This document shows, in pieces, positions 59,260-62,866 of a DNA stretch of 64,000 bases. Positions within the stretch are counted from its first letter, which is position 1; each line of letters starts with the position of its first letter. Below the pieces are notes generated by a model. The model had not been told where the DNA came from. It did no database searches and saw nothing but the letters and a program-made list of their open reading frames with translations. Source of the stretch: Ferruginibacter sp. (GTDB lineage Bacteria; Bacteroidota; Bacteroidia; Chitinophagales; Chitinophagaceae); the NCBI RefSeq assembly GCF_014377975.1, contig NZ_JACMOO010000171.1:1-64000 (forward strand). The letters run 5' to 3'. A program made the position numbers and the translations under genes.

Positions 59260-60345
59260 TTAAAAATCAATTTCTAATTTGACACACACTTTATTACCGG
59301 TACCCGATGGCAGTGTTAATATTTCTCCTTCTTTTACAGGAACACCAAAATTGGGCGAGCCATCTTTGTTCCAGGTAAACAGTTGGGCACGGGGAGAGCG
59401 AAAACCGCCACAACCCTGACCAGGCTTTGAATTTGCGTGATATAATATATAATCCTCTTTAGCATCCGGCGACTTGAAGAATGAATTATGACCAGGTGCA
59501 TACACCCTGTTTTCGATTGATTGTTTGAATACCGGCTGCAGTGACTTTTTCCAGGAGGCCGGATTCAACGGATCGCTTTTGGCACTTGCTGTAAGCATAC
59601 CCAGGGCATAAGAATCTGTCCAGCACCCACTGGCTGAATAGATGAGAAAAAGCTGATTTGCATGTGCCAGTACTTCGGGTCCTTCGTTTACATTTACCTG
59701 CGGTGGGTTATTAGCATCATGCAATGCGCCGATGGTTTCCCAAGGCAATTCAGGGCTTGATAATTTTACCCTTACACCAATAACCGTCCAGGGATTTTTC
59801 ATTTTGGCGATGTATATATTTTGCTGGCCGTTTACATCTGCTTCCCAACCCGACCAGATAAAATACAATTGCTTGTTGTGTTGAAACAAAGAACCATCAA
59901 TACTCCATTTATCATCCGGCGTAGCCAGTTTGCCTTTCAGTATCCACTTCCCTTTTAACGGATCAGCCGAACTGTTTTGCAATACCCAAAGCCGGTGATT
60001 TATATTTTTACCACTGTCTGCCGCAAAATAAATATACCATTTGCCTTGTAAAAAATGAATTTCAGGTGCCCACAATTCTTTGGAATATGGCCCGGTTGCC
60101 GGCGGGGTAAATACCACTTTTTTCTCCGCAGTTTTTAACCGGGCAATATTATCGGTTTTCCAAATGGTAATATTGCGGCCTGTTGTGTTGGTGTAATAAT
60201 AAAAGCCATCTTTATAAATGCACCATGGGTCGGCACCGCCGGGCAGTAGCGGATTGCTAAAAGTTTTTTGTGTCTGTGCAAAAACAATGGTTAACAAACA
60301 ACAAAAAAGTATCGTACTAAATATAAGGTGCTTTATTATTTTCAT
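59260..60345 (-). CDS. GH43-family glycosidase (arabinan-type)
   Basis: signal peptide; NPLLPGGADPWCIYKDGFYYYTNT, ELWAPEIHFLQGKWYIYFA, NEGPEVLAHANQLFLIYSASG, YAPGHNSFF. Confidence 0.88.
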   Translation of the reverse strand: MKIIKHLIFSTILFCCLLTIVFAQTQKTFSNPLLPGGADPWCIYKDGFYYYTNTTGRNITIWKTDNIARLKTAEKKVVFTPPATGPYSKELWAPEIHFLQGKWYIYFAADSGKNINHRLWVLQNSSADPLKGKWILKGKLATPDDKWSIDGSLFQHNKQLYFIWSGWEADVNGQQNIYIAKMKNPWTVIGVRVKLSSPELPWETIGALHDANNPPQVNVNEGPEVLAHANQLFLIYSASGCWTDSYALGMLTASAKSDPLNPASWKKSLQPVFKQSIENRVYAPGHNSFFKSPDAKEDYILYHANSKPGQGCGGFRSPRAQLFTWNKDGSPNFGVPVKEGEILTLPSGTGNKVCVKLEIDF

Positions 60346-60478
60346 ACCTGTAATATTATAATTAGCAATCCATTATTTTTTCTGAATTTTTATACAGATT
60401 GGTTGTATAAACTTTCCGTTGTTGCCGTACAGTAGATGGAAAAGATAACTAATTGTATGAATAAGGAAAATATTGCGT

Positions 60479-60765
60479 TTTTACCGCCGTAGCAGGTGTC
60501 CACATTGGACAATTCTTCATAACAGGCAATAACATTTTACCGCCGTGGCCGGTGTCCCCACCGGACACTTCTTATTACCAGGCCACTTAATTTTACCGGA
60601 AAAAATAATTGATTTTTTATTATTCACTCCATTCTCCCTGCAATATCTACCGCCGTGGCCGGTGTCCCTACCGGACACTTCTTATTACCAGGCCACTTAA
60701 TTTTACCGGAAAAAATAATTGATTTTTTTAACACGACTATCCCAGCAATATTCACCATTGGCCAT
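60479..60765. repeat. intergenic repeat array, unit about 56 bp, with nested inverted repeats
   Basis: TTTTACCG (or close variant) at 60479, 60535, 60591, 60645, 60701; 60538-60619 nearly identical to 60648-60729 (mismatch at 60559/60669). Confidence 0.85.
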
Positions 60766-60769
60766 TTAG

Positions 60770-62866
60770 TTAGTTCACCACCGGAAACGAAGATATTCTT
60801 AACCTCGCTGCTCCCATGGGCACCAGTTCTATCGGCTGCTCTTTTGTTGAAACCGATACCGGACTTTGCGGCAACACATCACACAAACCATATTTATCCA
60901 GCACCCATTCCGGAATAATTTTTCCAGTTGCTTTTAATACAAATGGCACGGCATCCTGGGTAAAAGGAAAATCATCGGCAGGCCATGGTTTTTTAATCAA
61001 TTTAAACTGGCTTTCCAGTGGCTGATCATTTAGTACCAGTCCATAGTTCCACATAGTGGTTGGATAAATTTCGTAAGCAGGCCATTGGGTCTGATCTACA
61101 TTTTCCTGCCATTTGGAATCACCGATGGCAGATTTTTTACTGTCCATCTGTTTATACGATTCTCCAATTTTTAAAGAAAAAGTGAGTGGTCCATAATTGA
61201 TGCTTACACTGTTCCTGTTATTACTCCAGTCTTCTTTTTTTAACAGCATTGGCAATACCAGTTCTACCACATCGCCCTGTTTCCATTTTGTTTCAAGCCT
61301 TGCATAAGAACCTGGCACCAATTCAGTTTTTTGATCAACACCATTAATTTTAATAGTAGCTCCGTTGCACCAGTTTGGTATGCGTAAATACAATGGAAAA
61401 TTTATTGCAGTACCGGTATTGATTTCAATTTTTATATTTTCATCAAACGGATAATGGGTGGTTTGTTTAAGGCCAACGGCATTGCCTTTGCCACTGCCAA
61501 CTTTAACGGATACTTCACTGCTATTGTACAGGATAGCAGCGACGCCATTATCAGGTGTGGCCATCCATAAATGTTCTGCATAATAAGGCCAGCCCTGTGA
61601 ATGATTGTGCTGGCAACAGCGGCTGCTAAAAGGATTCATCATTAAAAACGGACCTTCATTTTGTAATCCCGGTGCATGGTTGCGGCTATCACTCACTACC
61701 ATGTTAGGGGCTGTTAAATAACGGAGGCCTTTAAAGTCGGCCATTACTGCCGCAGGATATGTATTGAAAGCAACATTCTCGCAATTGTCCGCCCACATGG
61801 GGTCTCCGGTGATGCCGGTTAATATTTCATCCGAAGCCATCTGCTCTACCATGCCACAGGTTTCCACTGCCTGCCTGGGATCATCATATCCCTTTCTGGC
61901 ATTTTCATCCGCACCAAACATGCCACCCGGCACCTGGCCATACAATGTTCTTACCAGGTAAAAATCTTTGTAAGTATCTCTTAAAAAGCTGCTGTCTTTG
62001 GTCTGCATAAAATAAGTTGCCGGCTCCCTGAAACATTGGGCAATATTTACATTGTGCCAATTGGGTAAATTATTTTTCTGTGACCAGTCTGCGGTATTGC
62101 GATGAATTTTATCTGCCAGGGATAACAACCAGTTTTCGCCGGTGCGGTTATACAACCAGTAAATGCTGTACAAATTATCGCCGCCCCGGCTGTTTTCCCA
62201 ATAAATTTTAAGTAATTTATTATCGGGTATGGTTGTTTGCCACTTAAAATAGTGAGTCATAAAAGGAATAACACGGGCATCGTTACTGTATTCATAATAA
62301 GATTGCATACACCAAAGCATCAGCATATTGGGCCAAAGGTCGGGTGTTTGACCTTTGTTATCCTGGTGTTCATTTTCAACAACACGTGGACCAAAATATC
62401 CGTCGGGCTGCTGGCTTTCAAATACTTTGTTTAACCACAATTTTGTTTCGCTGATAATTTTTTCATCTTTCAACACATACCCAAGATTGCCGTATCCTTT
62501 CAACCAGTAAGGCACTTCTTCCCAGCCATGTCCGCCTTTACCGTTGCCGCTAAACCAGGCATTGTCTTTTTTATCAAGCCAGGCGCTGATCTCTCCCAGC
62601 TTTCCCGTGAGGCCATTTTTTTGCAACTCCAGGTATTTCTTTATCCAGCCTTCTGGCTTAATAGAACCTACCGGCAGCTTTATAAAGCTAAGTGGCTGCA
62701 GCGGCAATCTGTTACTGGTGTAAAATTTATTTACGGCAACCGTAGACGGACGTTTAACATTGGTAACCTTAGCCTGACCATTGGCTGAAACGGCAGCCAA
62801 CACAATCATTGCTGTTAAGCAAACGCTATAACCAACAGCCTTTTTTATTTTATTCATAGCCTCCAT
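60770..62866 (-). CDS. GH127-like (DUF1680) beta-L-arabinofuranosidase-type protein
   Basis: VPYWLKGYGNLGYVLKDEK, YGQVPGGMFGADENARKGYDDPRQAVETCGMVEQMASDEILTGITGDPMWAD, NPFSSRCCQHNHSQGWP. Confidence 0.85.
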   Translation of the reverse strand: MEAMNKIKKAVGYSVCLTAMIVLAAVSANGQAKVTNVKRPSTVAVNKFYTSNRLPLQPLSFIKLPVGSIKPEGWIKKYLELQKNGLTGKLGEISAWLDKKDNAWFSGNGKGGHGWEEVPYWLKGYGNLGYVLKDEKIISETKLWLNKVFESQQPDGYFGPRVVENEHQDNKGQTPDLWPNMLMLWCMQSYYEYSNDARVIPFMTHYFKWQTTIPDNKLLKIYWENSRGGDNLYSIYWLYNRTGENWLLSLADKIHRNTADWSQKNNLPNWHNVNIAQCFREPATYFMQTKDSSFLRDTYKDFYLVRTLYGQVPGGMFGADENARKGYDDPRQAVETCGMVEQMASDEILTGITGDPMWADNCENVAFNTYPAAVMADFKGLRYLTAPNMVVSDSRNHAPGLQNEGPFLMMNPFSSRCCQHNHSQGWPYYAEHLWMATPDNGVAAILYNSSEVSVKVGSGKGNAVGLKQTTHYPFDENIKIEINTGTAINFPLYLRIPNWCNGATIKINGVDQKTELVPGSYARLETKWKQGDVVELVLPMLLKKEDWSNNRNSVSINYGPLTFSLKIGESYKQMDSKKSAIGDSKWQENVDQTQWPAYEIYPTTMWNYGLVLNDQPLESQFKLIKKPWPADDFPFTQDAVPFVLKATGKIIPEWVLDKYGLCDVLPQSPVSVSTKEQPIELVPMGAARLRISSFPVVN

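Follow-up and report, generated by a model that had tools for sequence, protein, structure and literature searches.

A probable small cluster of REP-like palindromes of a RAYT-tied class in the GH127-GH43 gap of a Ferruginibacter genome

The closest described systems are the REP, BIME and REPIN palindromes with their TnpAREP (RAYT) transposases. These palindromes are short, intergenic and multicopy, they occur singly, in inverted pairs or in clusters, and the gene of the Y1/HUH transposase is bracketed by hairpins of its own class whose stems on the two sides match at each locus. In the canonical GTAG REP the guide is a GT[AG]G tetranucleotide that stays unpaired and lies 5' of the foot of the hairpin. 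For Bacteroidetes hosts, the main text of PMC6006769 describes two TnpAY1 subclasses: subclass 2.4, with double-foot GT[AG]G REPs and a median HuH-Y spacing of 88, and subclass 2.6 (Bertels group 5), with a median spacing of 82, in which 'atypical secondary structures' flank the RAYTs and have copies elsewhere in the genome. The hairpins analysed here share the general features of the REP/RAYT systems. They differ in the tag at the foot, which in the RAYT-flanking copies is an unpaired GCC and not GT[AG]G, in the loop (TCYY) and, at the locus under study, in the direct tandem arrangement of the copies.

The window, i.e. the whole stretch of 64,000 nucleotides that was analysed, contains this locus in the 424-bp gap (60346-60769) between two co-oriented genes for glycoside hydrolase families GH127 and GH43. 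The following features were annotated:

59260..60345, minus strand: GH43 family protein, 361 aa, downstream of GH127
60482..60518, plus strand: hairpin copy 1, diverged and with a weak stem; CCGCC tag, then GTAGCAGGTG-TCCA-CATTGGACAA
60478-60521, plus strand: covariance-model match of copy 1 (E 2.1e-9; the copy is a training-set member)
60538..60574, plus strand: hairpin copy 2; CCGCC tag, then GTGGCCGGTG-TCCC-CACCGGACAC
60534-60577, plus strand: covariance-model match of copy 2 (training member)
60538..60618, plus strand: left copy of an 81-bp direct duplication (hairpin and AT-rich spacer)
60648..60684, plus strand: hairpin copy 3, with one base changed in the loop-closing region; inside the 110-bp duplicate
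60644-60687, plus strand: covariance-model match of copy 3 (training member)
60648..60728, plus strand: right copy of the 81-bp duplication, 99% identical to the left and 110 bp apart from it
60770..62866, minus strand: GH127 beta-L-arabinofuranosidase family protein, 698 aa, upstream in transcription order

Three copies of one hairpin were found between 60482 and 60708, all in the same orientation (direct tandem) and with starts that lie 56 and 110 bp apart (60482, 60538 and 60648). The unit reads CCGCC followed by GTGGCCGGTG-TCCC-CACCGG(A/C)CAC. The top-scoring tandem arrays reported by TRF for the window are those with periods of 56 (score 147) and 110 (score 299), and the core hairpin pattern GTGTCCNNNNCGGACAC, with two mismatches allowed, has six matches in the 64 kb, all of them in the array (0.25 expected). 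An earlier, preliminary description of this DNA had placed repeat anchors at 60479, 60535, 60591 and 60701 (TTTTACCG) and at 60645 (ATCTACCG), and all five positions were confirmed. Its reading of them as five 56-bp units holds only in part, as a hairpin starts at just three of the five anchors (those before 60482, 60538 and 60648). The anchors at 60591 and 60701 precede AT-rich DNA with no hairpin unit, and the array is therefore a 56-bp repeat to which a later 110-bp duplication was added. The older 56-bp copies are 75-77% alike while the recent 110-bp copies are 99% alike. The duplicated stretch had been given as 82 bp; its existence and the distance of 110 bp stand, with a corrected length of 81 bp at 99% identity. 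The array had also been said to occupy almost the whole gap, of which it fills about 60%.

Nested inverted repeats had been proposed for the unit, and their arms are present at the positions given (GTGGCC at 60545, GGCCAC at 60581, GTGTCC at 60552 and GGACAC at 60563). However, the outer GGCCAC arm at 60581 was not found in the dispersed copies that were read; it is a local feature, able to pair when one 56-nt unit is folded by itself. The pairing CCGGTG...CACCGG, regarded earlier as an alternative, proved to be the helix that the family supports, extended to GTGGCCGGTG/CACCGG(C/A)CAC. In an alignment of 13 copies of this genome, 83% of the cells in the helix GTGGCCGGTG/CACCGGCCAC are paired, and its covariation score is higher than those of all 500 shuffles and of every slid version, within the limits that apply to related sequences and to a structure derived from the consensus. 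Copy 2, folded as single-stranded DNA, gives -10.2 kcal/mol, a stability reached by none of 200 shuffles, and the diverged copy 1 has a shifted helix as its own best fold. The minus-strand transcript, for which tandem hairpins had been foreseen, has a predicted fold better than that of its shuffles, with a z of -3.05.

The hairpin is a repeated, mostly intergenic element in this genome. The repeat recurs elsewhere: the 81-bp query gives short matches on other contigs, and the pattern GGTGTCCNCACC has 11 matches in the genome against none for the reversed control. A covariance model, R1, gave 43 matches at E<=1, of which 30, at E<=0.01 save for weak ones, are listed as loci. The 13 training copies necessarily fit the model, roughly half of the matches are weaker and less certain, and several of 23-30 bits may be chance; the copy number is modest. 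All but two of the 30 hairpin loci (28/30) lie outside open reading frames of at least 120 aa, which cover 72% of these stretches, and the hairpin is found beside many unrelated genes. Matches were found in 18 of 60 genomes, this genome counted, with an uneven distribution (18 in G029, a genome of the same genus, and 12 in G050). The element is thus a REP in the broad sense, namely a multicopy, mostly intergenic palindrome of about 20-65 nt. Elsewhere in this genome and in G029 the hairpins often form inverted pairs.

A search of hairpin-rich relatives with PF01797 recovered two genes (in G050 and G054) that are adjoined by class hairpins, both belonging to one group. With their alignment as the query, 148 of the 299 genomes searched in the order proved to contain this RAYT group. 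For the 30 top-ranked loci of the clade, a class hairpin lies within 400 bp of the RAYT gene on at least one side in 25 and on both sides in 21. Under identical criteria, none of 24 other IS200-like/Y1_Tnp loci has one; the contrast is wide, for criteria (closure by GTG/CAC, length of the stem, a limit of 400 bp) that were fixed after some of the scored loci had been inspected. A background of 91 kb around GH127 genes contains no class hairpin either. Class hairpins are also present at the clade loci L171-L178, and clade members without a hairpin by these criteria include, for example, L155, L160, L161, L169 and L170. The proteins of the clade match PF01797 and NF047646 and carry the NHxH and YIHxNP motifs of RAYT/TnpAREP; against NCBIfam REP_Tyr_transpos, one lies over the cut-off and one just under. 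Class hairpins bracket one Bacteroidota/Chitinophagales RAYT clade of the HUH/Y1 family. A PDB sequence search with the RAYT gave no match, and on plasmids the search yielded no RAYTs other than distant ones, from Bernardetia and Persicobacter.

The class is defined by a GTG-TCYY-CAC top, a 5' GCC tag and a lower stem that is variable yet paired. At the RAYT loci the bracketing hairpins are inverted, with their tags pointing outward. The GCC tag was found at 32 of the 56 RAYT-flanking hairpins and on the mirror side at only one of 56, and it counts as independent evidence because hairpin orientation was set by the loop. Between the left and right stems of one RAYT locus, 12.2 of 14 positions agree, compared with 8.5 after shuffling (0/10000 as high, p < 1e-4), in a set of 15 loci with one hairpin per side picked by hand. 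On the RAYT tree the hairpin label changes three times against 13.3 times when shuffled, the labels having been given after the loci were seen and proteins missed by the motif filter having been left out.

GT[AG]G stands at the foot in five of the 56 hairpins that flank RAYTs, and in the aligned copies of this genome it occurs at the stem start of 11 of 13, mostly as paired bases; we therefore class the hairpins as a REP-like, RAYT-linked variant and do not term them canonical GTAG REPs. Compared with subclass 2.4 as described in the main text of PMC6006769, several copies have GTGG and, at their opposite end, the complementary CCAC, which recalls double-foot REPs, and the hosts are Bacteroidetes in both cases, whereas the end bases of the RAYT-flanking relatives vary with compensation (GAGG, GTTG, TCGG, AAGG etc.). 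The motifs given there for subclass 2.6 (NH[LIV]H, WQ, YIH[QN]NP) fit most of the clade proteins and the flanking structures are atypical, although about 77 residues separate HuH from Y in the clade, compared with the median of 82. By motif and flanks the clade fits subclass 2.6 best and is likely identical with it, the main text of PMC6006769 presenting the published structures without their sequences.

In this genome the RAYT association is represented by fragments only. The search that had been proposed for a RAYT returned pieces accompanied by hairpins but no intact RAYT of the clade, in an assembly that is 94% complete, consists of 437 contigs and has one fragment running off a contig end. 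The pieces and their hairpins are as follows:

C201:8808-9059: RAYT C-terminal piece, 76% identical to the intact RAYT of G029
C201:8758-8800: hairpin directly after this C-terminal piece
C201:10620-11056 (L188): tandem array with a unit of 107-127 bp made of the last RAYT codons and a hairpin; reaches the contig end
C370: RAYT N-terminal piece, HUH motif lost
C314: RAYT end piece

The tandem array of RAYT tail and hairpin on C201 means that tandem growth of a hairpin with its flank is not specific to the window. The RAYT pieces on C201 adjoin hairpins with a TTCG stem, whereas the copies in the window are of a subfamily with CCGG stems; among the loci listed from 399 family genomes searched, none had a RAYT alongside hairpins of that subfamily.

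Several other observations were made at transposase genes. In this genome, L028-L031 (IS200-like Y1 genes) and L032 (RAYT-like) were considered as partners and set aside, no class hairpin lying near them. One of these, L030 (G000:C398:3718-4020), is an IS200-like Y1 transposase situated between umuD-like and umuC-like open reading frames, with a perfect hairpin CTCCGGGCTTTAGCCCGGAG downstream. On contig C25 of G050 (L142/L130), a near-identical direct repeat, AAGCTTCA..CATCTTT, some 44 bp long, occurs at about 240-330 and 900-970, where it flanks the RAYT and its two hairpins and is possibly a trace of the origin of that RAYT.

We consider it probable that a few REP-like palindromes of this RAYT-tied class, presumably spread by a RAYT and enlarged in number by tandem duplication, make up the array. 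Its earlier description as REP/BIME-like is borne out insofar as the class is dispersed, mostly intergenic and, in related genomes, RAYT-bracketing, but the window copies are all direct and lack the inverted pair that makes a BIME or REPIN unit. A RAYT acting in trans would have cut and spread the hairpin as single-stranded DNA, and one copy would have inserted 3' of GH127. The array would then have been built by two tandem duplications, an older one of 56 bp and a recent one of 110 bp, which may have arisen through slippage or recombination between copies.

A MITE-like origin had also been put forward. This genome does contain a separate element of 135-180 bp with AAGCTGTCTAAAAAT inverted ends, in about two dozen copies or partial copies, which encloses an inverted pair of class hairpins and is a MITE/REPIN-like composite. 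The array could accordingly be internal sequence of this element and so the remnant of a MITE that a DDE transposase mobilised, as the 26 or so matching places and the inverted ends at many hairpin loci would suggest. The same hairpins are shared, but the window array has no AAGCTGTCTAAAAAT ends and none of the terminal sequence of this element, and no inverted pair of at least 12 nt was found around it. Hairpins without those ends also occur at C201, C141 and C70, beside RAYT genes and in further genomes, and we regard a MITE relic as unlikely. The AAGCTGTCTAAAAAT-ended element was seen at G000:C424:4691-4848 and at about 25 other places (e.g. L057, L067, L070, L074, L075, L080). Inverted hairpin pairs were in addition observed in a second kind of element in G029 (L112, L104), with ends AATGCCGTTTAGT.. 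/ ..ACTAAACGGCATT, and ends resembling these also occur at G000:C141. Literature searches on Chitinophagaceae MITEs and on RAYT in Flavobacterium found nothing.

The preliminary description had further proposed that the array governs the GH127:GH43 ratio by way of attenuation or mRNA stability. Such a dedicated cis-regulatory RNA, acting as an attenuator or in processing or stability, would agree with the co-orientation of the two genes and with the hairpins that the minus-strand transcript would form, and effects of REPs on mRNA stability and termination have been reported for other bacteria (PMC6006769). In G029, however, GH127 and GH43 are adjacent with a gap of 250 bp that contains no class hairpin, a comparison resting on one genome. 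The array is hence not required for the GH127-GH43 arrangement, and the hairpin-free gap speaks against a conserved control element. A GH127 gene was found in only four of 60 relatives, this genome included, and GH43 lies near GH127 in the named genomes only at L044, where one gene stands between them, which leaves G029 as the sole empty site. The base-by-base alignment of its gap with that of the window is poor, so the edges of the insertion are not defined. Nor did an insertion junction or a target-site signature emerge in the window. Terminator-like matches were found only on the plus strand, opposite to both genes, and together with the hairpin-free gap in G029 they leave a regulatory role unsupported. 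Moreover, the hairpin also stands beside many unrelated genes, and an Rfam search of the array gave only two sub-threshold, chance-level matches. A dedicated regulatory RNA is therefore quite improbable. A passive effect of the array on mRNA stability is possible; for GH127 and GH43 the array is probably near-neutral, its role on the GH127 transcript being at most that of a passive hairpin at the 3' end.

A chance hairpin with no mobile ancestry, duplicated locally in tandem, would account for the shared orientation of the copies and for the 99% identity of the last two, a pattern that slippage or unequal recombination produces, but this reading is hardly credible for a tagged hairpin that recurs at unlinked intergenic sites and beside RAYT genes in other genera.

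Beyond the array itself, the hairpins and their transposases may, as a tentative proposal, form a distinct Chitinophagales REP class, marked by GCC as the outside tag and by a GTG-TCYY-CAC top in place of GTAG. This class would co-evolve with a RAYT clade of its own and would tend to expand through tandem duplications that take in the RAYT tail or flank together with the hairpin. If this is true, these RAYT enzymes would read a different guide and loop. The tag, the loop and the variable yet paired stem provide a sequence definition for palindromes which the published work consulted describes as no more than 'atypical secondary structures' next to the RAYTs of Bacteroidetes. For this GH127-GH43 locus the finding calls for caution, as tandem hairpins in such gaps are more simply seen as mobile DNA than as a regulator. 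For the RAYT family, at least 30 matched enzyme-hairpin loci with different stems offer material with which non-GTAG RAYT recognition could be tested.
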